Program-made: the position numbers and the translations under genes | The notes under the pieces: model-generated | Told to the model about the DNA's origin: nothing | Databases searched by the model: none | The model's input: only the letters and a program-made list of their open reading frames with translations | DNA from: an uncultured Eubacteriales bacterium | Lineage (GTDB): Bacteria; Bacillota; Clostridia; Lachnospirales; Lachnospiraceae | Assembly: GCA_949289145.1 (NCBI GenBank) | Contig: CASEML010000149.1 | Span: 1 to 50,858, forward strand | Direction: 5' to 3' | DNA: 50,858 bases | Shown: one piece after another, positions 24,631 to 41,370 of the stretch | How the letters are laid out: the number at the start of each line of letters is the position of its first letter | Numbering within the stretch: the first letter of the stretch is position 1

Positions 24631-24671
24631 TTTCATATGCGATTTGAAAAAGCAGAAAGGAAACATGATAT

Positions 24672-27368
24672 ATGCTTAGTTTAGTAAATATTAAAAAAGA
24701 GTATGCATCCGGAGATACCAAAGTTCAGGCTCTCAAAGGAATCAGCGTTGATTTTCGTGAGAATGAATTTGTTTCTATTCTTGGACAGTCCGGCTGCGGT
24801 AAGACCACCACACTGAATATTATTGGTGGATTAGACCATTATACCAGCGGTGACTTGATCATCAACGGCAAATCAACAAAAGAATTCAAAGCCAAGGACT
24901 GGGATACTTACCGAAACCATTCTATTGGTTTTGTATTTCAAAGTTATAATCTGATTCCCCACCAGTCGGTATTGGCAAACGTGGAAATTGCATTGACACT
25001 GTCCGGTGTATCCAAAAGTGAACGCAGGGAACGTGCCATTAAGGCTCTGGAACGAGTAGGGCTTGGTGATCAGCTTCATAAACGACCGAATCAGATGTCC
25101 GGCGGACAGATGCAGAGAGTTGCCATTGCAAGAGCCCTAGTAAATGATCCAGATATTATTTTAGCGGATGAGCCTACCGGAGCTTTGGACACAGAAACCA
25201 GTATTCAGATCATGGAAATTTTAAAGGAGATTGCCAAGGATAAGTTGATTATCATGGTAACACATAATCCGGAACTGGCAAAAGAATACTCTACTCGAAT
25301 CATCAGACTTTTAGACGGCAAGGTAATCGATGATACCAATCCATATCAGCCGGAAAAAGAAATTCCAGTAAAAAAAGAGAGTAATAAGAAAAAGTCTTCT
25401 ATGTCTTTTGCCACTGCTTTATCCTTAAGTCTTAACAATTTAATGACAAAGAAAGGACGTACTATTCTGACTGCATTTGCAGGTTCCATTGGTATTATCG
25501 GAATTGCATTGATTTTGGCTCTTTCCAATGGTGTTCAAAATTATATTACTACCACCGAAGAAGAAGCCTTGTCCAGCTATCCTATTAGTATTCAGGAAAA
25601 TACTGTTGATATATCCACTATGATGACTGCTATGATGGGCATGAACAAAGGTTCCGATGAAACTGTTTCCAATCAGGCAGAAGACAGAGTTTATTCTAAC
25701 AATATTATGACTAACATGATAGAATCTATGATGTCGGAGACAACCACCAATAATTTAAAAGATTTTAAGAAATTTATTGAAGATGACTCCAATGGAATCA
25801 AAGAGCTTACTACAGATATCACCTATGGATATTCTACACAGCTTAATATCTACAAAGCAGATACTTCTGAGGGCATTACTCAGGTAAATCCCAGTCAGGT
25901 ATTTAATGATATCGGTATGGGCGGTCTGATGGGTACAGATGACAGTGCAGGTTCTTCCATAGTAAGTACGTATTCCATGGGTTCCGGAACTGATGTGTGG
26001 AAAGAGTTATCAGATAATCCAAAGATTATAACTTCCACCTATGATGTGATTGAAGGAAAACTTCCTGAAAACTATGACGAAATCGTTATTGCAGTGGATC
26101 AAAACAACCAGATCAGTGATTATTGTCTGTATTCTCTGGGAATTTTGAACACAGATGAATTAAATGATATTATCCGTGATATTTATCAGGAAAATGACGT
26201 AAAAGAAACGGCACAAACCGATTATTCCTGTGAAGATATCCTAAATTTAAAATTCAAATTATTGCTGAATACAGATTACTATGAAAAAGAAAATGGTATT
26301 TGGGTAGATAAAAGAGACGATACTTTATTTATGAAAAATAAATTGGAAAATGCCTTAGAATTAAAGGTAGTTGGTATTATCCGACCAAAAGAAGACAGTG
26401 AACAGACAGAAACGGGAAATATTTATTATTCCAGTGATCTTATGAAATATCTGATCAATCAGATCAATGAATCGGAAATTGTAAAGGAGCAAATGGCTGA
26501 TCCTGATACAGATGTATTTACTGGACTTCCTTTTGTTTCCGATGAAGAGGAAAATACTGAATTTACACAGGAAGAATTTATGGCAGCACTGCAGTCCTTA
26601 GTGGACGCCGGTGAAATGACACAAGAAGAGCTGGTTTCTATTCAGACAGAAATGACACAAATGTCAGCAGCCGGAATGGAAGAAGATGCTATGATGTTAG
26701 AAATTGTTAATGCACACCCTACAGTTTCAACCTTATTTTCCTCTAAGGAAAGTACAAATACGTTGGAAGAAAATAAGCTTACACTTGGCATTGCATCTCT
26801 TGATTCTCCAAGCAGTATAAATATCTATCCAAAGGATTTTGAGGCAAAAGACCAAATTTCTGATATTATAGAAAATTATAACAACTCAGTTTCTGAAGAG
26901 GATGCCATTACTTATACAGATTACATTGGACTGATGCTTTCCTCCATAACAACCATTATTAATGCAATCAGTTATATTTTAATTGGATTTGTTTCCATTT
27001 CACTAATCGTATCCTCTATTATGATTGCCATTATTACTTATATTTCTGTTATGGAAAGAACAAAGGAAATCGGTATCTTAAGAGCTGTAGGTGCATCAAA
27101 GAAAGATATTTCCAGAGTATTCAATGCTGAAACATTAATTGAAGGTTTTGTATCAGGTGTAATCGGAATCGGAGTCTCTTTATTGATTTGCATTCCAATT
27201 AATATTATTGTTAACACTCACTTTGATATTGAACGTATTGCTAATCTACCTTGGCTAGCAGGTTTGATATTGGTATTGATCAGTATGTTCTTAACATTTA
27301 TTGCAGGTCTGGTACCATCAAAAATGGCCTCCAAGAAAGACCCTGTGGTTGCGCTGAGAAGCGAGTAA
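24672..27368 (+). CDS. ABC transporter, fused ATP-binding and FtsX/MacB-like permease
   Basis: An 898-aa fusion. Residues 1-220 form the ATPase: Walker A G-Q-S-G-C-G-K-T, signature M-S-G-G-Q-M-Q-R, Walker B I-I-L-A-D-E-P-T-G-A-L-D, switch H in V-T-H-N-P. A linker leads to a first helix (about 265-285), a large extracytoplasmic domain (about 290-755), and three C-terminal helices (about 760-795, 815-845, 860-890), with the coupling motif M-E-R-T-K-E-I-G-I-L-R-A-V-G. This is the MacB design, used to export or sense peptides and antibiotics at the membrane surface. The extracytoplasmic domain is unusually long, acidic and Met-rich (M-M-T-A-M-M-G-M-N-K). It lies convergent to the lantibiotic operon, but I see no evidence that it works with it. 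Confidence 0.88.
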   Translation: MLSLVNIKKEYASGDTKVQALKGISVDFRENEFVSILGQSGCGKTTTLNIIGGLDHYTSGDLIINGKSTKEFKAKDWDTYRNHSIGFVFQSYNLIPHQSVLANVEIALTLSGVSKSERRERAIKALERVGLGDQLHKRPNQMSGGQMQRVAIARALVNDPDIILADEPTGALDTETSIQIMEILKEIAKDKLIIMVTHNPELAKEYSTRIIRLLDGKVIDDTNPYQPEKEIPVKKESNKKKSSMSFATALSLSLNNLMTKKGRTILTAFAGSIGIIGIALILALSNGVQNYITTTEEEALSSYPISIQENTVDISTMMTAMMGMNKGSDETVSNQAEDRVYSNNIMTNMIESMMSETTTNNLKDFKKFIEDDSNGIKELTTDITYGYSTQLNIYKADTSEGITQVNPSQVFNDIGMGGLMGTDDSAGSSIVSTYSMGSGTDVWKELSDNPKIITSTYDVIEGKLPENYDEIVIAVDQNNQISDYCLYSLGILNTDELNDIIRDIYQENDVKETAQTDYSCEDILNLKFKLLLNTDYYEKENGIWVDKRDDTLFMKNKLENALELKVVGIIRPKEDSEQTETGNIYYSSDLMKYLINQINESEIVKEQMADPDTDVFTGLPFVSDEEENTEFTQEEFMAALQSLVDAGEMTQEELVSIQTEMTQMSAAGMEEDAMMLEIVNAHPTVSTLFSSKESTNTLEENKLTLGIASLDSPSSINIYPKDFEAKDQISDIIENYNNSVSEEDAITYTDYIGLMLSSITTIINAISYILIGFVSISLIVSSIMIAIITYISVMERTKEIGILRAVGASKKDISRVFNAETLIEGFVSGVIGIGVSLLICIPINIIVNTHFDIERIANLPWLAGLILVLISMFLTFIAGLVPSKMASKKDPVVALRSE

Positions 27369-27500
27369 CCATATGTAATATTAACTTTAGGGAATGATAT
27401 GCTCCTTTGTAGGTAGACAAATAAATTAAAAAACTACAAAAAAATCCAGTTGTATTAACACCTATAAAAAACATAATATATATTTACACGAAGCATAAGA

Positions 27501-27527
27501 CTGCCAGTAGGTAAAACCTACTGGCAG
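27501..27527. terminator. Convergent terminator hairpin between ABC fusion and lanG
   Basis: A perfect 11-bp stem, CTGCCAGTAGG / CCTACTGGCAG, with a TAAAA loop lies between the ends of the two convergent genes. T-rich stretches follow on both strands, so it probably serves both. Confidence 0.7.
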
Positions 27528-27633
27528 AAAAAATTTGTATTTTTAAATTTTCTACTTAATGGGATCGGTTTACAAGGAAGTTTTACATTATAACTTATAA
27601 CTGAAAAGAAGGTAAACTATTTCTATCATAACG

Positions 27634-28350
27634 TTACATTTTTTTCCTCTTTATCCATTCATCAATAATATGAAATCCCCATAACCATAAAATTCCCACT
27701 ATAGCAACGCATATAATAACTTTTACAATCGCATTTTCATAGTCCATGGCAATATTATATGCATAGCAAAGTGCCCAATATACTGTAAATTTTGTTTGAG
27801 AAACAACTAACACCAATATAATTTCCAAAATTCCAATGGTTACCTTGCAAATCATATTATCACACAAAATGCAAATATATAAAATAACTGTCATATTTAT
27901 GCCAAAACATATCCATGATAAAATAAGTGGAATACAAACAGCTTCTATTATGACCTCTAATCCACGAGTATGCAAAAAATAGCAACCGTAAATATTCATT
28001 ACAAAATATACTGCAAAACATATTACCCAGTTCAAAACTACTTTTCCGCCAATACTTAATTTACAACTCCCTTTATTTGCAATAATCAACTGCCACCCAT
28101 TTTCTTCATTTTCTACACACGAAAAATAGGTATTCATAATTAGCAGAAACAACGGCAACACTATCATTATCATCACATTAATCATTGTAAAATACAAATA
28201 AACATCTAACGGCAATTCAACATAATCCATAACCATGTTGCCTACAAACTTATCTATGCCTAAAAGTACTATAAAGCTTAAGAAAATCGCCAACAACAGC
28301 CATCTTCCAAAATTATTTTTTATAATTTCAATTTTAATAATATTTTTCAT
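27634..28350 (-). CDS. Lantibiotic self-immunity ABC permease, LanG-like
   Basis: A 238-aa ABC-2-type permease with six predicted helices (starting W-L-L-L-A-I-F-L-S-F-I-V-L-L-G). It has no enzyme motif. It is the last gene of the lan operon and starts 4 bp after lanE ends. In class II lantibiotic producers the LanFEG exporter removes the antibiotic from the producer's own membrane. Which permease should be called E or G is a naming convention; I assign by order. Confidence 0.8.
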   Translation of the reverse strand: MKNIIKIEIIKNNFGRWLLLAIFLSFIVLLGIDKFVGNMVMDYVELPLDVYLYFTMINVMIMIVLPLFLLIMNTYFSCVENEENGWQLIIANKGSCKLSIGGKVVLNWVICFAVYFVMNIYGCYFLHTRGLEVIIEAVCIPLILSWICFGINMTVILYICILCDNMICKVTIGILEIILVLVVSQTKFTVYWALCYAYNIAMDYENAIVKVIICVAIVGILWLWGFHIIDEWIKRKKM

Positions 28351-28353
28351 AAT

Positions 28354-29103
28354 TTATAACCTTATTTCATGATTTCTTTTCAAATTTATTTGAGCTATGA
28401 TGTAAAAAATAATTGTTAAAACGATACATATCACACATATTTCTATGCTTTCTGAAACACTTGCCCTAAATCCATATGAGCCGTACGTAAATGGTAAATG
28501 AATTAGTAATTTAACATCATCCACATAATAGAAGGTGATATTAAGCACGAAAAAGCAAATGGAAAGAGGAATTACAACAAAAATTTTCTTTATAATGCAA
28601 ATAATCATAATGTAAAACGAAACCATCATAGTGGCCGTTAAAAATTGTATACAAAAACTTTTTAAAAATAAATTCCATTCTATATTTTCTGCCACATCTA
28701 TTTGCTTTCCAACAACCAGTGTCGCAATAAAATGAACCACAAAAAAAAGAAATATGTCAATTAATGCAACTTTCATCTTACCAATATTAACACTTTTATT
28801 TACATATTGTGTGCTTGCAACCAGATTCCAAGCATTACATTTTATCTCCTGTATATAAATCTCATATACAATTGCCGCTACCAAAATATGGACAATTTCC
28901 ACTATGTAAAAAACCGACTGTTCCTTAAAAACTAACTGCCAATTAGTTAGATTATATTCCACTTGATGTAACAAAAGATAGTCCTGAAATCTAAATGTTA
29001 AATCTATATATAAAAGCAAATTTAATACTATTGGTAAGAATAAGCAGATGATTATATTGATTTTTGGTTGTTTCAGCCATTCTATTTTAAAATTTTTCAT
29101 CAT
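28354..29103 (-). CDS. Lantibiotic self-immunity ABC permease, LanE-like
   Basis: A 249-aa ABC-2-type permease with about six hydrophobic helices and the N-terminal F-K-I-E-W-L-K-Q-P-K motif typical of such subunits, which run just before the first helix. Its start overlaps the lanF stop (ATGA), so the two are translationally coupled. Together with LanF and LanG it should form the self-protection exporter. Confidence 0.82.
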   Translation of the reverse strand: MMKNFKIEWLKQPKINIIICLFLPIVLNLLLYIDLTFRFQDYLLLHQVEYNLTNWQLVFKEQSVFYIVEIVHILVAAIVYEIYIQEIKCNAWNLVASTQYVNKSVNIGKMKVALIDIFLFFVVHFIATLVVGKQIDVAENIEWNLFLKSFCIQFLTATMMVSFYIMIICIIKKIFVVIPLSICFFVLNITFYYVDDVKLLIHLPFTYGSYGFRASVSESIEICVICIVLTIIFYIIAQINLKRNHEIRL

Positions 29104-29822
29104 TCCACCTTCTTTTTCGCATTAATACAAGTAATATATGATTCTTCGAGAGTGTCACATTGATATTTCTGAAGAAAATTATCTAAGCTTCCACTATACA
29201 TAATTTCCCCGGCATTAATCAGAATAATGTCATCTATCACCTTATCCAATTCATTCAAAATGTGGCTTGAAATTAAAAATGTAATATTATTATCTCGATG
29301 GATTTTTTCAATAAGTTGTCGCACTTCTATGATACCTTCCGGATCCAATCCGTTTATAGGTTCATCCCATATCAATACCTTGGGATTTCCAACCAAAGAC
29401 ATTGCAATGCTTAATCTCTGTTTCATACCTAATGAATAGTTTTTAACTTTTTTCTTACCTGCATTTTTCAATCCAACTAGATCGATTAATTCTAAAATTT
29501 CTTCTTTTTTAATTTCAATATCTTTCATATAAGCTACCAATTGAATATTTTTATATGCATCAAGATTTGCGTAGTATGATGGACCACCTACAATGGAACC
29601 GATCTTATTTACTGATATTTTTTCTTCTGCATTGAAATTAATCTCTCCTTTATCTTTTGGAATTATACCAAGTAACAATTTAATTATTGTTGTCTTTCCG
29701 GCACCATTAGGACCAACAAAACCACACACTGATCCCTTCTTTATTTTAAACGATACATTTTTTATTACATCAGTCTTATTAAATTTTTTACAGACATTTT
29801 TAAATTCAATTATATTCTCCAT
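29100..29822 (-). CDS. Lantibiotic immunity ABC ATPase, LanF-like
   Basis: A 240-aa nucleotide-binding domain of the bacitracin/lantibiotic-resistance type (BcrA/LanF). Walker A is G-P-N-G-A-G-K-T, the signature is Y-S-L-G-M-K-Q-R (an LG variant normal for this subgroup), and Walker B is V-L-I-W-D-E-P-I-N-G-L-D. W-D-E-P-I-N-G-L-D, with Trp before Asp and Ile-Asn after Pro, is typical of LanF. Its start overlaps the end of lanT by one base (TAATG). Confidence 0.88.
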   Translation of the reverse strand: MENIIEFKNVCKKFNKTDVIKNVSFKIKKGSVCGFVGPNGAGKTTIIKLLLGIIPKDKGEINFNAEEKISVNKIGSIVGGPSYYANLDAYKNIQLVAYMKDIEIKKEEILELIDLVGLKNAGKKKVKNYSLGMKQRLSIAMSLVGNPKVLIWDEPINGLDPEGIIEVRQLIEKIHRDNNITFLISSHILNELDKVIDDIILINAGEIMYSGSLDNFLQKYQCDTLEESYITCINAKKKVE

Positions 29823-31975
29823 TAATTATTATCCTCTTCTATTAAATTACCAGTTTGGTATAATTTATAATACTCTCCTTCTAAATCTAACAGTTCCTCA
29901 TGTTTTCCATGCTCGACAATTTCTCCATTTTTCATGACATATATATAATCAGCATCAATTATAGTAGATAACCTATGCGCAATAATCACTTGCGTACATC
30001 CTTTTTGTGTTAAATAATCTATAACTCGTTTTTCATTAACTGCGTCCAGAGAACTAGTTGCCTCATCTAGTATTATTATTTTAGGATCATTTACCAATGC
30101 TTTAACCAATGCTATCCTTTGTCTTTGTCCACCGGACAAATTAAGTCCCATTTCTGAAACAATTGTATTAAATCCCATTGGCATTTCGGATATTTCTTTA
30201 TAAATATTTATTTTTTTACATACCTCAAAGATTTCTTGCTCTGTCACTTTACTGTTTCCTATAGTAATATTTTCCATTATACTTCTATTCAATAAATATA
30301 TTTCCTGTGGAACAATGCTAATTTGTTGACTAATAGATTCTTTTTTGATTTCATTGATATCTACTCCATCAAAAAATAGCATATTGTCTTCAATTTGATA
30401 CAAGCCAGCTATTATTTTAGCAATTGAACTTTTTCCGGATCCCGATTTTCCAACAAAGGCAACTCTTTTTCCTTTCTCTATTTTTAAATTAATATTATGT
30501 AACACTTCAACAGAATTCTTTGAATAAGAAAACTTCAAATTTTTGCATTCAATACTGCCCTCTATTTCAATTTTTTTAGTATTTGAATAAGATTTTTCTT
30601 CTTTCTCACACCATATATCATTAACCCTATTTAAGTATGTTTCTGCCAATAAAAACTGAGTATAGGCTGTGAAGAGAGAGGTTTCTGATAAAAATAGCGT
30701 TGATGATAAACTTTGAATTGCCACTATTTCACCCACAGAAATTGTTCCTTCATAATATAGGTATATTCCTGAAATTAGTATCACTATAGGAGCAAACATC
30801 TGAAATGTCCCTGTAATAGCCCCATATATATTACTAATTGAATATCTTTTTTTATAAGAATCTAATAACTTCTGAAAACTGTTTAGCCACAAATTATACA
30901 TGTCCTGTTCAACTCCAGAAGTTTTGACAGTCGAAATCGTAGTAATACTTTCCGTTTCAATCGCACTCATTTCCGCCTGTTTTTGTATTTCATTATTTAT
31001 CGATGTGCTAAGTGGATTTTTAGTAATAATTAGTATAGCAAAATTAATTATACTTAGTATAATTGCCGCTATACATAAATATGGTGATTTTCCCCAGATA
31101 AAACATATTGCAGCAACGATAATTCCACTTTCAACGACCCCACTTATAACTTGTGATGCTAGTAATTCTCTAAATGCATTTAAACTTGTTAATCTATATA
31201 TGATATCACCAACAGTTCTAATTTCAAAAAATTTATATGGTAATCTTAATATGTGCCAAAATGTTTTTTTTCCTAATTTTCTTGAAAATATAATATTTGA
31301 CATCATAATACTCATACTTCTTACGAAAAATGATATAAAATATAAACATCCTAATGCCGCAATCATAATAATTGCTGTTTTTATATTTGCAAATCCCTGA
31401 TTAGCAATAGTCTTATTTATAATATTCGATGTCTGATCCGGCAACTTTATTACTACTATATATGATAAACCTGTAAATAATATTGCCAACATTATCCACC
31501 ATTTGTTATCTACAAATACTGAAAAAACCATCTTCCACGGCGAGGGGACTGTACTCTTTCTTGGTAGATAATCAGCGTTTGGTTTAGCAATCATTACTGC
31601 ATTGCTAAAATGCTTCACTGCATCCTCTATACTATATTTTTCATAACCACATGCAGGATTCATAATGTACAAATCATGGTTTGTTATTTTATACAGTATT
31701 ACAAAATGATTATTATTCCAGTATAAAATTATTGGAACATTTATACCTTTCAAAGAACAAATATCTTTTATCTTATAGGTCTTAACTTCGAAATTTCTTT
31801 TTTCCATTAGTTCTCTTAATTTCGAAAGACTATACCCGTCCCTGCCACATTCCACATCATTACGCAGCTCATACAATGTTTCTCTTCCCTTATAATATTT
31901 TAATATGGAAAGGCAACAACATAAACCGCACTCAGTTTGTGTCATCTGCTCTATAAATGGAACTCTTTTACCCAT
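29822..31975 (-). CDS. lanT: Bifunctional leader peptidase and exporter, LanT-type
   Basis: A 717-aa peptidase-containing ABC transporter that cleaves the leader of double-glycine-type precursors and exports the core peptide. The C39 peptidase domain (about 1-135) has the catalytic Cys16 in Q-T-E-C-G-L-C-C, the catalytic His in N-N-H-F-V-I-L-Y, and the third residue as N-P-A (Asn in place of the usual Asp). Six membrane helices follow (about 150-430). The ATPase has Walker A G-K-S-G-S-G-K-S, signature L-S-G-G-Q-R-Q-R and Walker B I-I-L-D-E-A-T-S-S-L-D. The predicted cleavage sites of the two precursors (ending V-V-A-G and E-V-G-A) fit this class. It is downstream of lanM2 and overlaps lanF. 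Confidence 0.93.
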   Translation of the reverse strand: MGKRVPFIEQMTQTECGLCCCLSILKYYKGRETLYELRNDVECGRDGYSLSKLRELMEKRNFEVKTYKIKDICSLKGINVPIILYWNNNHFVILYKITNHDLYIMNPACGYEKYSIEDAVKHFSNAVMIAKPNADYLPRKSTVPSPWKMVFSVFVDNKWWIMLAILFTGLSYIVVIKLPDQTSNIINKTIANQGFANIKTAIIMIAALGCLYFISFFVRSMSIMMSNIIFSRKLGKKTFWHILRLPYKFFEIRTVGDIIYRLTSLNAFRELLASQVISGVVESGIIVAAICFIWGKSPYLCIAAIILSIINFAILIITKNPLSTSINNEIQKQAEMSAIETESITTISTVKTSGVEQDMYNLWLNSFQKLLDSYKKRYSISNIYGAITGTFQMFAPIVILISGIYLYYEGTISVGEIVAIQSLSSTLFLSETSLFTAYTQFLLAETYLNRVNDIWCEKEEKSYSNTKKIEIEGSIECKNLKFSYSKNSVEVLHNINLKIEKGKRVAFVGKSGSGKSSIAKIIAGLYQIEDNMLFFDGVDINEIKKESISQQISIVPQEIYLLNRSIMENITIGNSKVTEQEIFEVCKKINIYKEISEMPMGFNTIVSEMGLNLSGGQRQRIALVKALVNDPKIIILDEATSSLDAVNEKRVIDYLTQKGCTQVIIAHRLSTIIDADYIYVMKNGEIVEHGKHEELLDLEGEYYKLYQTGNLIEEDNN

Positions 31976-31998
31976 GTTCCTACCATTTCCTTTCTATT

Positions 31999-34767
31999 TT
32001 ATATATCCAACAATAACAAACTTGGATATTTTTTAGTTTTATATCTTAAAATTGAGTATGCCATTCCTGTAATTCCTAACATAAAAGATAACATGTCATA
32101 AGCATTTGAAATTCCACAAACTACACCCTCATCAAAAATATCATTTATCGTATTTGTAAATTTATCATTAATTTCTTTTTTCATATTTTTGTATTCAAAT
32201 ATATTGTTGGAAATTAAATCCAATACTTCAATGTTCCCCATTTTACCATGACATAAACTATGATTGCTTACCTTATAAAAATCTTGATTAATCTTTTTTA
32301 CAGCTCTTTGAATATCACTTTTACATATTGGAAGATTTGTATACTCATAAACTCTCATACGTGAAATAGCAATCCCAGAAGCACCATGACACCAGTACAA
32401 AGAATCTCCAATATTATTTTTATCCCTAACATCTTTCCAATTTTCTATTTTATTATCAAACATCTTATTTTCTCTAATAATCAGTTCTTCAACTATTTTC
32501 AAATATTTTTTTTCTTTAAATATATTATAACATCCAGCAATTGCCAAACTAACACCAGCATAACCATGTGCCAAACCAGCTAAGTTTATGTTATCAATAT
32601 TTTCTATTATGTATTCTGAATATTTCTTCAATAGATTTTTGATTATAATATTTTTATCTTTTTTATATATATTAACTAGCAGAACAACCATTCCAGCTAA
32701 CCCATTACAAAAATCTATATTTATATTACTATTAATTTCAATATGCGCAATTTCATTTAACATATTTTGAAATTTTGTATAATAAATACTTTCGTTCCAT
32801 AATTCATATAAATAATAATATATATATAATAATGAGCCTATACCATTATATGCTGATAGTACTTTTGACATTTCTAATGATTCAAATCCTCGTAAAGCTG
32901 CTTTTACGGTTAATTTATATAATTCATTTTGGGTTTCAACATATTCACTAGCTAATAAAACAATTATTCCCCCACCATCATATAGAAAACTATTAATAGG
33001 GTATATTTTTAATTTTTCCATTCCTACTGCATGTGCGGCCCAAGTACATAAATTTTTATCCTGTGAAAATACCGCTTCACTACACACATAATCACAAATA
33101 TTCTCTACATAATCTTCTTTATTAACAAAATAATAATTATAATCTTTTATATCCTTATTTATTTTTAGATTTCCATAGTTCCAATTTGACTTACCCAAAG
33201 TTGCCATTGATAATTTAATCATTCTTTGTTGAGTAATTAAATCGTCATAATCAATTTTTTCAATTCGTTTGAGAATTATTTCTAAAATATTTTCTTCATA
33301 AAAATCATTCACATTTCCATAAACAGAACATAATTTCTTAGAGTCCACAATTTCATAAAAATATGGTATATCACCATTTAATAAGCTTTCTATTTCCTTA
33401 TACGCCTTTTTTAAAAATTTATTGTTAGGAGAGACATTTTTGGGTTTTAAGATACCAAATAAATTATTTTGCTCTTGTACACTATGCAGATAATCTGGAT
33501 GATTTGATGCATCATAAAATTTATAATATGAATAAGTAGGCTTTAAAACTTGTCTTATTTTTATGTTGTTATTTTTAAAATAATCAATAATAAATTTTTT
33601 AATTCTTTTCTTATTTTTTATAATTAAAATATAACACTTTGTGAAGCCATCCAATAATTCCTTCAAATACAAGCAAGGATTTATACCTTTTTTTGTCTCA
33701 GATTTATAATATTGCCTTTCAAAGTGTATTTGATCCGAAAACTCATCAACTACAATATAACCACTTAATTGCTCAGAATTTTGTTCTTCGTATATGGAAA
33801 GAGGACTTAAGTCAAAATCATAAAATCCGCCAAGAATATTTAATGGAAGTAACATAGTATTTAGTACAGAGTCCGTAATCATCTGATTCATCAACCCATA
33901 TGCGTTTTGCATAACAGGAATATTATTTGCATAGCTGCTATTAAATATCATTGTTTCTGTATCAATAATAATAGGATATATTCCATTTTGTATTACATTT
34001 TCATTATGTAAATCTGTCATTTTTAAACTATACGAAAGGCAAAGCATCTCTCCATAACGATAATAATATTCTTTATTATCGTTATCATTATCTCTCTTAA
34101 ATTCTTCTACAAATTCTTGCCAACCGTATGTATTTTGATTAATAGTTTTAGGTACTCTTAACTCTTTTTCTAAATTTTCATTTAACATATTAACTAATTT
34201 CCCAAAAAATATATCCGTTTCTAAATCATGTGGTTTATAAAGTATTTTACAAACTCCATCGGACAAAATAATAGTTTGCTGACCATGATTATGCACATCC
34301 CCTCCTGCACTTATATCAATATATATTAACGCGTTAGCTTTAAAACCAAACTTATCTTTTAATTGTTCTTCATCCTTAAATAGATGTGTAAAGAATAAAT
34401 CAATAAACTCAACTGTATAATTAATTTTCTTTTGAATTTTATCAATTAATACAGGGTATTTTTTTTCGAAGTTTTTTGTAAACGTTTTATTAAGAAAATT
34501 TTTGCAATATAGTAAATATACTTCATTGTGTGTATATTTATTTAGTTCATCAAAATACTGATTTTTCCAAATATTTAACTCGTATATCAATGTACGAACA
34601 GAAATAGAATATATTACCTGATATATTTGTCTTTCCAAATCCAATAATATTTTTTCTTCATTTTCTAACTTATATTTTTTCAAAATGTTACTTATTCTTC
34701 TTGTTGCACCGTTTATATACTTTTCAAAGAAACTATAAAACTGTAATTTATTATTCTTATCTTTCAA
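31999..34767 (-). CDS. lanM: Class II lanthionine synthetase LanM2 (beta-peptide side)
   Basis: A LanM-type enzyme dehydrates Ser/Thr of a precursor and joins the products to Cys. The N-terminal dehydratase part shows I-L-Y-K-P-H, M-T-D-L-H-N-E-N-V and Y-P-I-I-I-D-T-E-T-M, as in the kinase-like LanM fold. The C-terminal LanC-like cyclase part has zinc ligands in L-Y-W-C-H-G-A-S-G (about 790) and L-C-H-G-K-M-G-N (about 835) plus G-L-A-H-G-Y-A-G. The most likely start is the TTG at 34767 behind AAGGAG, giving 922 aa; a GTG at 34803 has no ribosome binding site. It follows the beta precursor gene, as halM2 follows halA2 in the haloduracin locus. Pairing with beta is inferred from position. Confidence 0.93.
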   Translation of the reverse strand: MKDKNNKLQFYSFFEKYINGATRRISNILKKYKLENEEKILLDLERQIYQVIYSISVRTLIYELNIWKNQYFDELNKYTHNEVYLLYCKNFLNKTFTKNFEKKYPVLIDKIQKKINYTVEFIDLFFTHLFKDEEQLKDKFGFKANALIYIDISAGGDVHNHGQQTIILSDGVCKILYKPHDLETDIFFGKLVNMLNENLEKELRVPKTINQNTYGWQEFVEEFKRDNDNDNKEYYYRYGEMLCLSYSLKMTDLHNENVIQNGIYPIIIDTETMIFNSSYANNIPVMQNAYGLMNQMITDSVLNTMLLPLNILGGFYDFDLSPLSIYEEQNSEQLSGYIVVDEFSDQIHFERQYYKSETKKGINPCLYLKELLDGFTKCYILIIKNKKRIKKFIIDYFKNNNIKIRQVLKPTYSYYKFYDASNHPDYLHSVQEQNNLFGILKPKNVSPNNKFLKKAYKEIESLLNGDIPYFYEIVDSKKLCSVYGNVNDFYEENILEIILKRIEKIDYDDLITQQRMIKLSMATLGKSNWNYGNLKINKDIKDYNYYFVNKEDYVENICDYVCSEAVFSQDKNLCTWAAHAVGMEKLKIYPINSFLYDGGGIIVLLASEYVETQNELYKLTVKAALRGFESLEMSKVLSAYNGIGSLLYIYYYLYELWNESIYYTKFQNMLNEIAHIEINSNINIDFCNGLAGMVVLLVNIYKKDKNIIIKNLLKKYSEYIIENIDNINLAGLAHGYAGVSLAIAGCYNIFKEKKYLKIVEELIIRENKMFDNKIENWKDVRDKNNIGDSLYWCHGASGIAISRMRVYEYTNLPICKSDIQRAVKKINQDFYKVSNHSLCHGKMGNIEVLDLISNNIFEYKNMKKEINDKFTNTINDIFDEGVVCGISNAYDMLSFMLGITGMAYSILRYKTKKYPSLLLLDI

Positions 34768-34813
34768 AACTAATATCTCCTTCCATAATAAACATGCTCT
34801 CACAAGATTATTT

Positions 34814-34837
34814 TGGGGGAATTAGCAAGGGAGTGCG
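34814..34837 (+). repeat. Inverted repeat flanking the lantibiotic precursor genes, left copy
   Basis: TGGGGGAATTAGCAAGGGAGTGCG here reads, as the reverse complement, almost identically to 35241-35264 (22 of 24 positions). This copy is just past the beta-precursor stop and before the lanM2 start. Confidence 0.75.
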
Positions 34838-34860
34838 CCTTATTTAGTCATTTATATTAC

Positions 34861-35034
34861 TTATTTATTACAGCTTTTTGTACATGCACTTGTTGGACAT
34901 GCACCAGCTAAATATGTAGCAGCGATAGTTGCTACGATAACAATCGTTACTGGATGAGAAGCTCCTACTTCCTTTTCCTCTGCTAACAGTTCTAGTTCTT
35001 TTTCATCAATTTTTCCTGTTATTTTATTAAACAT
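34861..35034 (-). CDS. lanA2: Two-peptide lantibiotic beta precursor (LanA2)
   Basis: A 57-codon gene too short for the usual ORF cut-off. The ATG follows AGGGG, which overlaps the stop of the alpha gene. The leader is about 25 residues, acidic (K-E-L-E-L-L-A-E-E-K-E-V-G-A), and ends in a GA site. The 32-residue core starts S-H-P-V-T-I-V-I-V-A-T and ends C-P-T-S-A-C-T-K-S-C-N-K. That C-terminal pattern (CPTxxCTxxC) matches the beta peptides of lacticin 3147, haloduracin and plantaricin W, where those Cys and Thr/Ser residues make the conserved rings. The hydrophobic N-terminal half fits the pore-forming role. It has three Cys residues, giving up to three rings. The first core residue (Ser) would be an N-terminal dehydroalanine, often hydrolysed to a 2-oxopropionyl cap. 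Confidence 0.93.
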   Translation of the reverse strand: MFNKITGKIDEKELELLAEEKEVGASHPVTIVIVATIAATYLAGACPTSACTKSCNK

Positions 35035-35045
35035 GTTTTATTCCC

Positions 35046-35222
35046 CTATCTACAATTATTTTGACACTCTATGGTTCCAGTACAAACACTACCTTTATTT
35101 CCTAGAGCCTTGCTAACTGGACTTAATTTGAATGTTGACCAAATACCAGCTACAACTGTGTTCTCCTCAATTTCTTCAAATATACATTCGGTCATTGTTT
35201 CCATCAAAATTGGATTTTTCAT
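35046..35222 (-). CDS. lanA1: Two-peptide lantibiotic alpha precursor (LanA1)
   Basis: A 58-codon gene behind AAAGGAGGGG. The leader (about 26 aa) contains E-C-I-F-E-E-I-E-E-N-T-V-V-A-G and is cut at the AG site, leaving a 32-residue core that begins I-W-S-T-F-K-L-S-P-V-S-K. The C-terminal half, A-L-G-N-K-G-S-V-C-T-G-T-I-E-C-Q-N-N-C-R, aligns with lacticin 3147 A1 and haloduracin alpha (L-G-N-K-G-A-Y-C-T-L-T-V-E-C). C-T-G-T-I-E-C is the CTxTxEC lipid-II-binding ring of the mersacidin group. Three core Cys residues allow three rings. There is no Cys at the core N-terminus, unlike several relatives. The leader has an unused Cys13. The alpha peptide docks on lipid II and the beta peptide then forms the pore. 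Confidence 0.93.
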   Translation of the reverse strand: MKNPILMETMTECIFEEIEENTVVAGIWSTFKLSPVSKALGNKGSVCTGTIECQNNCR

Positions 35223-35240
35223 TTTTACCCCTCCTTTCTA

Positions 35241-35264
35241 CGCACTCCTTTGTTAATTCCCCCA
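35241..35264 (-). repeat. Inverted repeat flanking the lantibiotic precursor genes, right copy
   Basis: The reverse complement of 35241-35264 reads TGGGGGAATTAACAAAGGAGTGCG, matching 34814-34837 with 2 mismatches out of 24. This copy lies in the 47-bp space between the lanM1 stop and the alpha start, so the two copies bracket exactly lanA1 and lanA2 over about 450 bp. Confidence 0.75.
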
Positions 35265-35269
35265 ATGAT

Positions 35270-38200
35270 TTATTCAATCCATAAGAAGTGAGGTACTTCT
35301 TTTTCCGCATAATGTGATAGCATAGAATACCCCCACCCAGCTAGACCGATTAATAATCCAAACGTATTGCAACTTTTAAACTCCTTATTTCTCCATTGTT
35401 TTGATAGTATGTTGGAATATAATTCCTGAAACGTTTGTCTTTCTATATCTACTAATTCAAACTTTCCTAATATATTACCTGCAAATTTTAATATATCAAG
35501 ATTTCCCAAATCTCCATGACAATATGTTACATTATTTCCGAATCCCTGCAAGATAGTTGTTTTAATTGCATTCTCTATTTGTTCTTTTATATTGATGTCT
35601 TTGTATCCTTCCCTATACAAAAGCAATTTACTTAATAGAATTCCAGAAACACCATGACACCATGCATAGGAAACTTTTTGTTCTTTTTGCGAACGAGACC
35701 AATTTTTTTGTTTTGGGATATAGAATTTTTGTTCTCCGCACAAAGATAAATCAACTAATTTAAAAACTGATTGATCATTTAAATGTTTTCCTGCCATGTA
35801 TAAATATGAATGAATGCCAGCATTGCCATGTGCAAAACCACTATAATTATTTCTAGATACATTCCAAAAAGCTTGTCTCTCATCATTGTAGATTGCATTG
35901 GTTTTTAAATGCTCAATACAATTTTTTATTGTCTTATTAATCTGAGATAAATTGTTTGAATTTTTTGCCATTTTAAGAGCAACCGCCATTAAACCTGCTG
36001 TTCCGCCTACTATATCATAATTTTTATCTTTTTCTATTAACTTATTACATTTATATAATATAGTTTCTGCAATTTTTCTATATTTTTCTTCTTTTAATTC
36101 ATAGGCCATTGAATCCAATAAATATAATGTTCCACCCACTCCACAAAACGCTCCTAGGGGGCTAATCCTAAATGTTTCCTCGTTTTTTAAAAGAGACACA
36201 GGAATTTCAGCTGCCATTATCATTGCGGTATAAAATCTTTTTTCCCCTGTTATTTTCCATAAGTAAAGGTAGAACAAAGCTATACCAGCATTCCCACTAT
36301 AAAACTCGCTGCTCAGAACAGAAGGAATCCAAACATCTTCTTCAAACCCTTGAAGAGTTACACAAATCCATGATGCATCTTCTCTATTAAAATCATTTTT
36401 ACCGACAATCATATTCTCTAAAATATAATCTCCTATTTCAATAGCTGTCTTTAGCCACGCCTCTGGGGTAAGTATATTATTTTTTACTTCAAATTTAAGA
36501 TTAGTTTTTTCACTTTTATTTGCCCTTGTAATAAATGAATCATTAATATAGCTTAATTGCTTATTCAAATCATCTTCTGAAAAATTGAGCACTTTATTTT
36601 TAACTATTTCAATTACATTTTTAACTCCACTATTTTCTATCTCTTTTCCTGTGGATGAATATATTTTATTTTCCCCAACTACAAAGGAAAAGTATGGGAC
36701 ATCTCCGATTTGTAAATCCATATATTCATTTTTAGCCACTTCAGGATTTTTTTTATATTGCTCTATTAAAATTCTATATAATATTATATCTCTCTCAAAC
36801 TTTTTTCTTGCAAATTCTTGGTGTAATGAAATATTCAACAATTGACTATACAAATATGTTGGACGAACTACAACTCTTCCTCTTATCCCAATAAATAAAT
36901 CATAAATTTTTTTTATATATTTTTGTTTATTTTCTAAAATCCATTTGTACACATAAGAAAATGATTTTTTTATTTCTTCCTGAAATTCAGTTGCATCAGT
37001 CCTTTTACCATTAATTATTGGATTATTTTTTTCAACTTCTAATTTAAAATTTTTCCTTTCAATATATATATTATTATCTTCTTTAACAATGAATTCTGTC
37101 TTTACGTCTGTCTGTTGAATCTCATTTGCCCCTAATCCACCAACTTCTAGTTTTCCCATAAGGTAAGTTGGAAGCATTCCAACAGTGACAACTGACGATT
37201 CAAACATATCGGTTGCAATCTGTAAAGAACTGTTTTGATTTTGTTGTAATTTACCAGTAATTCGAGGATGAAGCAAAGTTTCTAAGTCTATTAAAATTGG
37301 ATATTCTCCACATGCAATAATATTTTCATAATGAATATCTACTGTTCCTAGTGAATATAAAATACATAATAATTCTCCGCATCTTCCATAAAAATTTTTA
37401 ACTTTCTCCATGCTAGTGCATGGAATATATTTAATTTTTTCAGCAAATCCATATTGTTCATCACTTATGATCGTGGCATATTTATAATCGTACTGAACTG
37501 CTCCCATTTCATATAACCAACAAATTAATTCTGAAAATTTCTCATCCATTTTTAATGGATGCGGCTTATAGTAAAAATTTTTTCCATCTCTTAGTTCTAT
37601 TCTCGCTACACTTTTTCCTCCTTGATGGGTATCCCCATCTCCAAGAAAAATATTTAGTATAGATTTTTCTTGTATATAAATATCCATTTTTTTTTCAAGT
37701 TCTTCTTTATGAAATAAAATATCGTCTAATATTTGATACACATATTTTATCCTCATTTCTATACGCTTTGATAAAAACGTTGTAATCTCAATATACTCCT
37801 TATAATACGATTGGATTTTTTTTATATCTTTTTGACAAATATCAATATATTCTTTCAATGATTTTCCATTTTTTTTATTATACTGGAACTCATGGATTAC
37901 TGTCTTGTATACTCCCTGATATACTTCTTCGCAACAACCAGACAGTATATTTATCCAAAAATTTTCCGAATCTGATATCAACTTTGACCTATCAGTTTGT
38001 TTTACTCCATTTTTATATTGATAATTTACAATTGGTAATATAAAAGGAGTAAATATATCATCAAGTTCAAGATTCTCACAAGCTTTCCTAACCAATGTAT
38101 CTATGTTAAAATCCACATATTTTTCTATATCATGTTCATAATCAACTTCGTCATAGTTATCATACTTATTACATAATTCTGAAAAACTATATTGACCTGC

Positions 38201-38293
38201 AAATTTTAAAATATTATTTAATTCATCAATTTCAATTTCTGGAAAATATTTAATCCAAAATTTTTCGATTTGTTCTTTTTTAAATTTAGGCAT
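35270..38293 (-). CDS. lanM: Class II lanthionine synthetase LanM1 (alpha-peptide side)
   Basis: A 1007-aa LanM. The ATG at 38293 (M-P-K-F-K-K-E) has AGGAG seven bases upstream; the ATG at 38314 has none. The dehydratase part shows F-Y-Y-K-P-H-P-L, then V-D-I-H-Y-E-N-I and P-I-L-I-D-L-E-T-L. The cyclase part has zinc-ligand motifs Y-A-W-C-H-G-V-S-G (about 873) and V-T-Y-C-H-G-D-L-G-N (about 923), plus F-A-H-G-N-A-G-I-H. LanM1 precedes the alpha precursor, so it likely processes alpha. Its sequence differs clearly from LanM2, so the two enzymes are not a recent duplication. Confidence 0.94.
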   Translation of the reverse strand: MPKFKKEQIEKFWIKYFPEIEIDELNNILKFAGQYSFSELCNKYDNYDEVDYEHDIEKYVDFNIDTLVRKACENLELDDIFTPFILPIVNYQYKNGVKQTDRSKLISDSENFWINILSGCCEEVYQGVYKTVIHEFQYNKKNGKSLKEYIDICQKDIKKIQSYYKEYIEITTFLSKRIEMRIKYVYQILDDILFHKEELEKKMDIYIQEKSILNIFLGDGDTHQGGKSVARIELRDGKNFYYKPHPLKMDEKFSELICWLYEMGAVQYDYKYATIISDEQYGFAEKIKYIPCTSMEKVKNFYGRCGELLCILYSLGTVDIHYENIIACGEYPILIDLETLLHPRITGKLQQNQNSSLQIATDMFESSVVTVGMLPTYLMGKLEVGGLGANEIQQTDVKTEFIVKEDNNIYIERKNFKLEVEKNNPIINGKRTDATEFQEEIKKSFSYVYKWILENKQKYIKKIYDLFIGIRGRVVVRPTYLYSQLLNISLHQEFARKKFERDIILYRILIEQYKKNPEVAKNEYMDLQIGDVPYFSFVVGENKIYSSTGKEIENSGVKNVIEIVKNKVLNFSEDDLNKQLSYINDSFITRANKSEKTNLKFEVKNNILTPEAWLKTAIEIGDYILENMIVGKNDFNREDASWICVTLQGFEEDVWIPSVLSSEFYSGNAGIALFYLYLWKITGEKRFYTAMIMAAEIPVSLLKNEETFRISPLGAFCGVGGTLYLLDSMAYELKEEKYRKIAETILYKCNKLIEKDKNYDIVGGTAGLMAVALKMAKNSNNLSQINKTIKNCIEHLKTNAIYNDERQAFWNVSRNNYSGFAHGNAGIHSYLYMAGKHLNDQSVFKLVDLSLCGEQKFYIPKQKNWSRSQKEQKVSYAWCHGVSGILLSKLLLYREGYKDINIKEQIENAIKTTILQGFGNNVTYCHGDLGNLDILKFAGNILGKFELVDIERQTFQELYSNILSKQWRNKEFKSCNTFGLLIGLAGWGYSMLSHYAEKEVPHFLWIE

Positions 38294-38404
38294 TTGTTCG
38301 CTCCTATACTCCATTAATCATCTATTCCATTTACTTTTCCAATTAATTTTCCTATTTTTATCGATAGATTTATGTTTATACCAATCATCTTGTGGCAAAA
38401 AACT

Positions 38405-38674
38405 TCATTGGGAAAACTTATAAATATACTCAAAATATCCTAATACCAGCGGTATATTAATGCTAATTGATAACTGCATCATCATCCACTGCCTAACAAA
38501 TTCCACCGTAATCTGCATAATGGAACCCTCGAGAAATACAGTCAATACTATTTTTAAAGTGTTTTCCTGTTTACAGGAAAGAACCATATCATATATTATA
38601 TTGTTAAAAACGGAGAGAACTATCCCTAAAATCGTCATGAAAAGTGACGCAAGTATTCCAGAGAAGAACAGTTT
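38405..38674 (-). pseudogene. Degenerate small membrane-protein gene, DUF2798-like
   Basis: Starting after a stop codon at about 38677, the frame reads K-K-L-F-F-S-G-I-L-A-S-L-F-M-T-I-L-G-I-V-L and then two hydrophobic stretches, ending Y-I-Y-K-F-S-Q. The only ATG (38638) cuts through the first hydrophobic segment and has no ribosome binding site, so the gene looks truncated. Pairs of short membrane helices of this kind occur in DUF2798 proteins, but the match is weak. Confidence 0.4.
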
Positions 38675-38772
38675 CTTCTAAGGTAACAGAAGACAAAGAT
38701 ATCTGTGAAAACTCTTTTCTCCTTATATTTTTTCCTTTGCAAACTCATTATTAGGCTTAAGTATCAACATTG

Positions 38773-38933
38773 CTCAAGTAAAACTCTTGTAAAATTCGTC
38801 TATTTCTATACGAATTATATATTTTTCTGCCACAACGTGAGTTTTCATGCTCTTAAAATAACAACAAAATGGCTTAACCCTTCTTTTTTCAAAATGTTTT
38901 CTATAGCTGGCAGTGTGTAGTTACTTAAGAATC
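38773..38933 (-). pseudogene. Remnant of a small DNA-binding-type protein
   Basis: Two frames read together as one protein-like stretch: G-F-L-S-N-Y-T-L-P-A-I-E-N-I-L-K-K-E-G-L, then F-V-V-I-L-R-A, and, after a one-base shift, M-K-T-H-V-V-A-E-K-Y-I-I-R-I. It ends F-Y-K-S-F-T. A helix-turn-helix-like pattern is possible. It has no start codon and is broken, so it is debris upstream of the lan operon. Confidence 0.35.
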
Positions 38934-39099
38934 CCTACCCATCTCCCCTAACTGCCTGTAATGGTAATTTCTTTTATATAATGTAAACATATCATTTCAA
39001 GACACGCTGCTGCGTAATCTATCATATTGTTTTGTAGATTTTCGTTTGATTTTATTTATTTCTTTTTATTTATTTTTCATTTTCTAAATTTATGTTGTA

Positions 39100-39129
39100 A
39101 TTATATATATACATTTATATAGTTGTCAA
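39100..39129 (-). promoter_or_regulatory. Candidate promoter of the lantibiotic operon
   Basis: TTGACA (39129-39124) and TATAAT (39105-39100) are separated by 18 bp on the minus strand. It is the best consensus promoter between the hairpin at 39205-39231 and lanM1. The resulting leader would be about 800 nt and run through gene remnants, so a closer, weaker promoter is also possible. Confidence 0.45.
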
Positions 39130-39204
39130 ACACTTTATTTCGACATTTTTCGCACTAAATTATATCCTTCTACATTTTCTTTATAATTATTAATCAAACT
39201 TAAA

Positions 39205-39231
39205 AACAGCCGCTATTTTACTGCGGCTGTT
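39205..39231 (-). terminator. Terminator hairpin upstream of the lan region
   Basis: A perfect stem, AACAGCCGC / GCGGCTGTT, with a nine-base loop (AGTAAAATA on the minus strand) is followed by TTTTT on that strand. It would stop transcripts coming from 39700 before the lan promoter. Confidence 0.75.
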
Positions 39232-39429
39232 CCATTGATTACTTTTCAATTTGCTATAAGAACTCTTATAGGTTTTTATCACTGCTCTGATTTTATTATA
39301 ATAAGTTCTATTTCCATTCAAATTTTTTTATATAGGTAACTTTTGTTCTCTTGTAATGGCTGCTGTCTGTTCAGTTTAACTTTGTTGTTCTGATATTTTA
39401 CAGAAGTAATGACCGGCTTCTTAAAAACA

Positions 39430-39698
39430 ATTTAAAAAATTATCTATTTCTTACCCTTATCAACTTCAATTCCCTGCATAATTATGGTTAGTTTTCCTAC
39501 TTTTAATGCAGTTTCTCTCTACTTTACCTTAACAGTAGCTGTGTTCCTGGGACCTACAGTTACACTTTGACTTATTGTTATACTTGAATTCGTGTTACTG
39601 TAGAAGCAACTGTTATGCTAGATCTCACTGTTAGCCTCAAACTTGGTGTAGCTTCAGTCTCTAATCCTATTAATGTGCTCATCAGAGTGATACTGTCC
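39430..39698 (-). pseudogene. Degenerate coding remnant, surface-protein-like
   Basis: Frames with stops read in pieces such as S-I-T-I-S-Q-S-V-T-V-G-P-R-N-T-A-T-V-K-V-K and S-I-T-V-A-S-T-V-T. These Thr/Val-rich patterns look like beta-sandwich repeats of secreted proteins. No intact frame, start or stop pair survives. It fills most of an approximately 1.4-kb gap between the HAD gene and lanM1. Confidence 0.35.
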
Positions 39699-39699
39699 T

Positions 39700-40527
39700 T
39701 TAAATCTTCAATATTTCATAAATCCCATAAGCTACCCCGTCTTCATCATGATGTTTTGTAATCAAATCTGCTGCCCGAATGCACGACTCTGAAGCATTTT
39801 CCACAGCAATACCCGTGCCCACAAACTGCAGCATATCAATATCATTATCTGCATCACCAAAAGCGGCTATTTCTTCCTTTTTCAATCCAAGCAATTCCAT
39901 AATAAATTTTACACCAGAGTGTTTTCCTGCCTTTTCATTGGAAATCTCAATCAATTGTGCTACAGATGACGTAATATAGATTCCTTCTATTTCTTTCCTT
40001 AAAGATTCCATTAGCTTCTTCTTTAAATTTTGGTCGCCTACGATAATATCCATACAATCTAACTCATTTATATTTTCATAAATAAAGTTTTCAATGTTGT
40101 CCACCATATGCCTTGTATTTTTTACATACTGAACTGCCTCTTTGCTTGCTCCAAATCTTACCGGATTGTCAATATATGTTTTGTCTGCATATGCTGTTCC
40201 ATTTACAAAAGCTTCATATGTAATATGTTCATTTTCGGAAACCCGCAGAATCTCCTTTACATTATTACTTCCTATTTTATACTGGTGCAGGCATTGTTCT
40301 GTTGGAATATGATAAATGGCAGTTCCATTGGATGTAATTGCATATTCAATTCCCTGTATTTCTAATACATCCTTGGGAAGCGTATGAAAAGCCCTTCCAC
40401 TGGCAACCACAATATTCACACCTTTTTTGATGGCATATTCTATGGCTTCTTTATTTACTTTTGATAATCTGCCATTGGCATTTAAGGTAGTTCTATCTAA
40501 ATCAAGTGCAATACATCTAACTGCCAT
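39700..40527 (-). CDS. Cof-type HAD-superfamily hydrolase
   Basis: A 275-aa protein of the HAD IIB (Cof/YidA) group, usually cytosolic phosphatases of sugar phosphates or nucleotide-like cofactors. Motif I is D-L-D-R-T-T-L at residues 9-15 (Asp9 nucleophile and Asp11; Arg-Thr replaces the usual Gly-Thr). Motif II is V-V-A-S-G-R, motif III Lys is in the S-N-E-K-A-G-K region, and motif IV is A-F-G-D-A-D-N-D-I-D-M-L. A cap domain lies between motifs II and III. Substrate is not predictable. The ATG follows AAAGGAG. Confidence 0.88.
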   Translation of the reverse strand: MAVRCIALDLDRTTLNANGRLSKVNKEAIEYAIKKGVNIVVASGRAFHTLPKDVLEIQGIEYAITSNGTAIYHIPTEQCLHQYKIGSNNVKEILRVSENEHITYEAFVNGTAYADKTYIDNPVRFGASKEAVQYVKNTRHMVDNIENFIYENINELDCMDIIVGDQNLKKKLMESLRKEIEGIYITSSVAQLIEISNEKAGKHSGVKFIMELLGLKKEEIAAFGDADNDIDMLQFVGTGIAVENASESCIRAADLITKHHDEDGVAYGIYEILKI

Positions 40528-40564
40528 TTATTTCTCCTTTTTTTACTACTTCATTTTAATACAA

Positions 40565-41350: not shown

Positions 41351-41370
41351 ACTATTCTCCCCTTTTTAAT

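Follow-up and report, generated by a model that had tools for sequence, protein, structure and literature searches.

A 50,858-nucleotide stretch of DNA (the window) from an uncultured Eubacteriales bacterium of the family Lachnospiraceae (contig CASEML010000149.1, assembly GCA_949289145.1) harbours on its reverse strand (27634-38314) a unidirectional run of eight open frames, lanM1-lanA1(alpha)-lanA2(beta)-lanM2-lanT-lanF-lanE-lanG, which very probably represents a two-peptide class II lantibiotic biosynthetic operon. The two precursor genes are bracketed by a long inverted repeat. A bracketing repeat of lanA1-lanA2 is present in all six loci of the lineage to which the window belongs, a feature that is new here and goes beyond the initial annotation of this DNA. 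Judged from the arms of the related loci, a long stem is kept by compensatory change, i.e. the pairing is conserved and the arm sequence is not.

The initial annotation had described a complete two-peptide class II lantibiotic locus with two LanM enzymes, and the alpha precursor, the beta precursor and both LanMs indeed exceed curated model cut-offs. The alpha precursor encoded by lanA1 (35046..35222; 58 aa) scores 32.5 bits against PF14867 (cut-off 27) and 33.5 bits against NF000539 (cut-off 29), and the beta precursor encoded by lanA2 (34861..35034; 57 aa) 49.9 bits against NF038161 (cut-off 26), with no match in Pfam. LanM1 (LanM-a; 35270..38314; 1014 aa; DUF4135 and LANC_like domains) and LanM2 (LanM-b; 31999..34803; 934 aa; GTG start at 34803, alternative in-frame TTG at 34767) reach 703.5 and 612.8 bits, respectively, against TIGR03897 (cut-off 304 bits). 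The proposed position of the precursors between the two LanMs, followed by LanT and LanFEG, was likewise recovered, LanE and LanG being named by position and by the adjacent LanF. Of the extent 27634..38293 suggested before, the lower end holds; at the upper end lanM1 starts at 38314, position 38293 corresponding to in-frame Met8. No regulator and no LanP were detected among the eight locus genes, and an Rfam scan of 34000-36000 (4227 models, E up to 1) yielded no match.

Relatives were retrieved by scanning an 84,980-species collection with two peptide patterns derived from five aligned LanM1s, a procedure which can miss members, and the best 80 of 196 LanM1 relatives were surveyed. The surveys exclude the duplicates L059, L072 and L100 (of L039, L035 and L036) as well as L082 (false alpha), and include one distant LanM from viral contigs; LanM-a alone as query on genome contigs retrieved no related loci. 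Five relatives share gene order and direction with the window: L058 (uncultured Eubacteriales), L059 (identical to L039; Lachnospiraceae, roe deer rumen; contig ending inside lanM2), L060 (Ruminococcus flavefaciens RUG10802), L061 (Clostridiales Firm_05) and L062 (Streptococcus cristatus A53). A tree was calculated from 67 LanM rows, restricted to loci whose precursor was recognised and whose two LanMs measure at least 700 aa, to which the single-LanM loci L078, L091 and L094 were added; L073 (two LanMs) was left out, its precursors having been recognised only later. The tree contains an M1 group of 24 rows (support 98) and an M2 group of 23 rows (support 99), with 23 loci represented in both. 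The six-row clade obtained support 100 in both groups and is joined in both by the sister loci L063-L065 (support 98 and 97), and the two enzymes therefore appear to have travelled together. By gene order and tree, the window thus belongs to a six-locus lineage of Clostridia and Streptococcus cristatus. S. cristatus A53 is a member of this otherwise clostridial lineage, repeat included, and this occurrence in a streptococcus suggests horizontal transfer.

The clade had already been delimited, from gene order and tree, when the repeat was discovered. In the window, GGGGGAATTAACAAAGGAGTGCG precedes lanA1 and an inverted near-copy follows lanA2, the arms (25 nt, 92 % complementarity) being located on the reverse strand at 35241..35265, between the lanM1 stop and the lanA1 start, and at 34813..34837, between the lanA2 stop and the lanM2 start. 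A pattern covering both arms has two matches in the window (0.00 expected, 100 shuffles). In each clade locus, six in all, no inverted repeat of the examined stretch is longer than the one whose arms occupy the lanM1-lanA1 and lanA2-lanM2 gaps; outside the window, arm lengths and complementarities are 37 nt and 86 % (L058), 27 nt and 96 % (L039), 27 nt and 93 % (L060), 33 nt and 91 % (L061) and 38 nt and 82 % (L062). The ungapped repeat scores range from 19 to 24 against shuffled maxima of 10-13, with none of 300 shuffles reaching the observed score in any of the six loci. Among the titles and abstract beginnings listed from the open-licence papers searched, none describes such a repeat around lantibiotic genes.

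A wider scan of 1,849,749 bases (the window, L034-L041, L055-L138 without the three duplicates, and L149-L155) revealed 14 repeats with a score of at least 18 and a gap of 150-1500 nt. Six of these are the clade loci, six locate elsewhere (not at lanA), and one each was found in L073, where two beta-like precursors are bracketed by arms identical in 19/19 positions (L073:12952-13472), and in L129, where an alpha-like gene lies between arms identical in 27/28 positions (L129:981-1319). Scanning of the small loci (154,814 bases, score of at least 17) gave three matches, namely L039 again, L023 and L028. The repeat L085:9472-9742 of Bacillus mojavensis was dropped as a bracketed lanA candidate, having no precursor ORF (open reading frame) between its arms, which lie 229 nt apart directly before a LanM gene. 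One of the six repeats away from lanA is a 27-nt inverted repeat of the window (18014-18245; 2 mismatches) positioned just outside a TwoAYGGAY RNA (RF01731, 18046-18214, forward strand), between the gene for a class I tRNA synthetase and that for a 1722-aa DUF5724 protein.

RNA duplexes between the upstream and downstream gaps of one and the same locus have calculated energies of -38.5 to -55.3 kcal/mol (z -5.7 to -11.2, 200 shuffles), whereas cross-locus duplexes only reach -10.4 to -32.8 kcal/mol. The near-identical L060 and L061 are excepted, their cross duplexes (-47.1 and -50.6 kcal/mol) showing the foreign partner to be as good. In the three pairwise comparisons of L039, L058 and L062, the three loci with alignable arms (aligned by hand on a shared string), 3, 4 and 4 of the 25 positions carry changes in both arms with pairing retained, 3, 0 and 3 carry a change in one arm, and 1, 3 and 3 are unpaired in one locus. 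The sense fold of the window segment has a z of -2.78 (1 of 100 shuffles as good). In a survey of 61 precursor groups, the four strongest were clade loci (z -4.6 to -6.9), followed by a next value of -2.62; haloduracin (L112 of Halalkalibacterium halodurans, presumably the haloduracin record), the Staphylococcus aureus locus and the sister loci ranged between -2.28 and 2.00. This survey was coarse (25 shuffles each; groups with flanks below 60 nt or containing N dropped) and missed L060 and L061 (z -0.26 and -1.84 with the downstream part limited to 200 nt; -7.8 and -10.5 with full gaps) as well as L129 (z -0.82; gene start set too early).

The alpha core is predicted to start at Ile27, after AG (aligned to relatives with GG there), and to read IWSTFKLSPVSKALGNKGSVCTGTIECQNNCR; it contains three Cys. 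The motif CTGTIEC, which the initial annotation had recognised as being of the lipid II type CTxTxEC, is present in lanA1 and also occurs in L058 and in S. cristatus (L062); the string itself was not found in the open-licence papers searched. Ser at position -10 from the motif Cys is conserved in 6/6 clade rows and 21/25 others, and the resulting Ser11-Cys21 spacing is the same as in the L112 alpha, i.e. matches the ring pattern of haloduracin. Rings Ser11-Cys21, Thr22-Cys27 and Thr24-Cys31 are expected. The calculated mass of the unmodified core, which has 7 Ser/Thr, is 3440.70 Da, and each water lost would lower it by 18.01. In all six clade alphas, the 20 residues preceding the motif are free of Cys. 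At the loop position of the lipid II motif, the clade alphas carry Gly (three, including the window) or Ala (three), the sister loci Ala (two), and the remaining loci Leu (7), Ile (7), Trp (3), Tyr (3), Val (2) or Ala (1). Saturation mutagenesis of position 21 in lacticin 3147, as far as described in the available text of PMC3918158, showed Leu to be replaceable by Met, Val and weakly by Tyr only; according to the same source, C55alpha carries Ala at this position.

The beta core is predicted to start after GA; unmodified, with 8 Ser/Thr, it has a calculated mass of 3190.62 Da, again to be reduced by 18.01 for every dehydration. Its motif CPTSACTKSC fits the pattern CPTxxC(T/S)xxC as given in the accessible part of PMC9431498; the peptide had been thought to terminate with this motif and actually ends CPTSACTKSCNK, two residues further. 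The canonical spacing of beta ring A, in which Ser/Thr stands four positions ahead of the first CPTxxC Cys, is absent from the window, which has Leu at -4. Ser/Thr at -4 occurs in 2/6 clade, 0/3 sister and 16/20 other rows, and at -6 in 6/6 clade, 3/3 sister and 8/20 other rows. Since Thr at -6 is the only Ser/Thr available between positions -2 and -8 of the window peptide, ring A probably links Thr15 with Cys21, a spacing of six residues in place of the customary four; possibly, Cys21 would be left unlinked instead.

Both LanMs carry dehydratase and zinc cyclase motifs and, when aligned with L112, retain the YKP, DxHxxN, DxE and zinc-ligand (WCHG, CHG) columns. LicM2 is the closest solved structure in the PDB for both (263 bits for LanM1, 335.5 bits for LanM2). 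In the M2 group of the tree, the beta gene is located directly upstream in 15/23 rows and the alpha gene there in none; in the M1 group, alpha is adjacent in 15/24 rows (9 directly upstream, 6 downstream), and beta is directly upstream in 0/24 and directly downstream in 7/24. Based on the tree groups and these neighbouring precursors, LanM1 would act on alpha and LanM2 on beta. Speaking against this assignment, HalM2 falls outside the 23-row M2 group and HalM1 just outside the M1 group (support 82); several branches of the tree are long.

The gene for LanT (29822..31975, reverse strand, as all genes of the locus) encodes a C39 peptidase/ABC exporter whose matches to Peptidase_C39, ABC_membrane and ABC_tran exceed their cut-offs. 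Of the C39 catalytic residues, Cys and His are retained; the third is Asn in the window, as in L058, and Asp in the five others aligned. LanF (29100..29822), the putative immunity ABC ATPase, has TIGR03740 as its best NCBIfam model, scoring below the cut-off (220.3 versus 309.75 bits). Glu of the E-loop in place of the Q-loop Gln is a hallmark of LanF; the corresponding position is occupied by Gly in the window, L058, L060, L061 and L062 and by Glu in L063, L064, L055, L066 and L084. LanE (28354..29103), adjoining LanF, and LanG (27634..28350) are hydrophobic and were assigned as membrane subunits by position, with no match in NCBIfam/Pfam family scans. In lichenicidin it is LicP that trims the beta peptide; the protease doing so in haloduracin is of unknown origin (PMC10006061).

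Comparison with known systems places the window closest to its own clade, in which LanM1 is 39-44 % identical to that of the window and the alpha/beta pattern and bracketing repeat recur; the cores of these five loci are identical to the window in 20-24/32 (alpha) and 19-21/32 (beta) positions, the arm sequences differ, and L060 additionally has a LytTR regulator and a kinase upstream. Haloduracin (L112) resembles the window in having two LanMs, an alpha with CTxTxEC, a beta with CPTxxCTxxC and LanT. The gene order M1-A1-A2-M2-T, previously equated with that of haloduracin, agrees in its linear sequence and differs in strand, alpha-M1 of L112 being opposite to beta-M2-T. Moreover, the haloduracin alpha has two N-terminal Cys, whereas the window alpha has none and would lack the N-terminal disulfide of haloduracin, and the haloduracin beta has Ser at -4 in contrast to Thr at -6. 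Core identity amounts to only 13/32 (alpha) and 10/32 (beta), and comparable bracketing pairing is not found in haloduracin (z -0.51 and -2.28). The alpha of L135 (Streptococcus ratti), presumably of BHT-A/Smb type, likewise has no N-terminal Cys and is identical in 16/32 positions; its locus differs by LanMs on long branches and another gene order. Flavecin of R. flavefaciens FD-1, compared by description and not by sequence, is also a two-peptide system with two LanMs, and this strain possesses 12 precursors according to the available text of PMC3951391. Vagococcin T combines two peptides, two LanMs and the CTxTxEC and CPTxxC(T/S)xxC motifs (accessible part of PMC9431498). In R. flavefaciens XPD3002 (L087), the LanM is 38 % identical to LanM1 of the window, several precursors are devoid of CTxTxEC, and a run of precursors after the LanM gene (L087:13225-15127) combines near-identical leaders with very different cores; six core peptides are reported for this strain in the consulted part of the Hungate1000 paper (PMC13289728).

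The expectation that the product is probably new was supported, as no identical core was encountered and the nearest cores in the surveyed loci agree in 24/32 (alpha) and 21/32 (beta) positions; judged from sequence, the window locus adds a new member to the two-peptide class II lantibiotics. Among 72,556 plasmid records (E up to 1), seven match the alpha precursor, the best-ranked with 43 % identity over 90 % of the precursor and one short match with 54 % over 41 %; none match the beta precursor. Within the family of the organism, alpha exceeds the PF14867 cut-off and beta the NF038161 cut-off in 6/397 genomes each, these being the same six genomes (G000, G011, G013, G135, G138 and G151). LanM1 was found in none of four other genomes of the genus at E <= 1e-30. 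The congener G002 keeps the genes flanking the cluster (71-95 % identical), which read as genes for a HAD-type phosphatase and for riboflavin functions, and has other ORFs beside the HAD gene, so that the cluster apparently sits at a variable place. The GC content is 25-31 % across 27000-39000, versus 32-43 % in 15000-27000 and 39000-50000. A second lanthipeptide-type locus is located at a contig edge of G000 (C133:2-3168, L040) and comprises a C-terminal LanM-like fragment, a dehydrogenase-like protein and an ABC transporter nearest to PmtC/PmtD models.

Upstream of lanM1, a possible main promoter (TTGACA-18-TATAAT, 39100..39129, reverse strand) is sigma-70-like and matches the consensus in 12/12 positions; promoter-like sites in the window as a whole are little enriched (101 versus a shuffled mean of 87.7, sd 9.6). 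Between this site and lanM1, colinear scraps (38405-39030) resemble the C39 part and the first membrane part of a decayed exporter and end just before lanM1; E-values are weak (2e-4 and 0.018 at best), the pieces having been compared separately. P0010 (38405-38638) was rejected as an ordinary gene, resembling together with the neighbouring scraps the start of a decayed C39-ABC transporter. An FMN riboswitch (45104-45220), ordinary in itself, is located before apparent riboflavin genes.

Genes, motifs, lineage and the repeat with its co-varying pairing were observed directly; the substrate of each enzyme, the ring pattern, the mode of killing and the role of the repeat were deduced from these observations. 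LanM1 and LanM2 would dehydrate and cyclise the alpha and the beta precursor, respectively, LanT would remove the alpha leader after AG and the beta leader after GA and export the peptides, and LanFEG would protect the producer. Alpha, via its lipid II motif, may dock on lipid II and recruit beta, whereupon a pore would form. Several details weigh against such a fully functional system: LanM2 has Lys replacing Arg in the RPT column, LanF is devoid of the E-loop Glu, and Gly at the loop position of alpha is outside the residues tolerated in lacticin 3147 (available text of PMC3918158). The locus could be imagined to be silent or decayed, or its product to be a signal instead of a killer, a view into which the loop Gly, the missing E-loop Glu of LanF, the Asn as third catalytic residue of LanT and the decayed transporter-like relic just upstream (weak E-values) would fit. 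All eight genes are, however, open frames, the Gly/Ala loop and the LanF Gly recur in relatives, and the LanT Asn recurs in L058, which renders this interpretation distinctly unlikely.

For the repeat, a long-range RNA stem is the likeliest of the roles considered: the arms may pair inside the operon transcript, and cleavage of the stem would cut out or stabilise the lanA1-lanA2 message, freeing an RNA of about 400-450 nt and letting the precursors outnumber the enzymes. In rRNA operons, processing stalks for RNase III are formed by long inverted arms bracketing the released RNA; the inverted arms of the window are alike, its RNA would in contrast be a peptide-coding message, and cleavage is putative. 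The stem, of about 25 pairs and with both arms in non-coding gaps, is of the kind that RNase III would need. The lanM1-lanA1 gap measures 47 bases, nearly all of which are repeat arm and ribosome-binding site; this leaves no room for a promoter, and transcription of lanA would therefore require either readthrough or a promoter within lanM1. As an explanation of the repeat, an intrinsic terminator was discarded, the loop being about 400 nt long and no terminator being predicted at the arms. It is tentatively proposed, at a confidence somewhat short of probable, that the precursor pair is bracketed by a co-evolving RNA stem serving as an rRNA-like processing stalk, which excises and stabilises the message and sets the precursor:enzyme ratio post-transcriptionally, and that at least L073 and L129 among other lanthipeptide loci have come by the same device, through separate origin or through spread. 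The lowest-energy sense fold closes the stem in 8/8 bracketed loci, and the sense duplex is the stronger one in four of six loci (L058, L039, L060 and L061) and the weaker one in the window and L062. Several observations run counter to the proposal: antisense folds also close the stem in 8/8 loci, and the folds therefore do not separate RNA from DNA function; both mismatches of the window arms are A.C in sense RNA; antisense pairing is slightly better in the window (-46.8 versus -41.2) and in L062 (-39.1 versus -38.5); the L062 upstream gap pairs fairly well with the window downstream gap (-32.8); and none of the 55 other precursor groups reaches a z of -2.7, the repeat thus not being a general feature.

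With near-identical inverted arms around a segment of 400-640 bp, the arms could instead be recombination sites of an invertible cassette, a recombinase flipping lanA1-lanA2 and conferring phase variation of production. Recombination, too, would make the two arms of a locus alike and those of different loci unlike, and the window mismatches do not favour sense RNA. Yet the precursors are oriented with the operon in 8/8 bracketed loci, and the mismatches are mostly G.U in sense RNA in L058 (4/5), L060 (2/2) and L061 (2/2). No recombinase was detected among the 17 of 34 window ORFs of at least 150 aa given to Pfam (five without family), nor among 10 flanking ORFs of L058, L060 and L061, the rest of the genome not having been searched, and inversion is considered unlikely. 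Paired operator sites, each arm binding a regulator, one before lanA1 and one before lanM2, are improbable as well: TATAAT strings in the arms of L039 and L058 and the LytTR regulator with a GHKL kinase upstream of lanM1 in L060 would agree with regulator binding, however the two sites are oppositely oriented with respect to transcription, the window arms are devoid of TATAAT, and the arm sequence varies across the six loci. That the repeats mark the ends of a small mobile element, or are a by-product devoid of function in the operon, as might be thought from the 6/14 long repeats away from lanA, appears very unlikely in view of their location in the same two gaps in 6/6 lineage loci, the co-variation of the arms, and the absence of any other copy of the window arms, with up to 3 mismatches allowed, from the draft genome of the organism.

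The locus adds to the two-peptide lantibiotics a lineage of Clostridia with one streptococcal member and two structural departures, i.e. the larger predicted ring A of beta and Gly/Ala in the lipid II loop. By sequence comparison, the conservation of the bracketing repeat and the unusual spacing of ring A set it apart from known two-peptide systems, the repeat mattering more than the peptide departures. A lantibiotic operon should presumably need more precursor than enzyme, and a processing stalk, if true, would be a simple, transferable means to amplify a small gene inside an operon; an invertible cassette, if true, would amount to phase variation of an antibiotic. Because the pairing is kept in related loci though the letters differ, the placement of the precursor genes between mirror-image arms suggests an unfamiliar way of controlling them.

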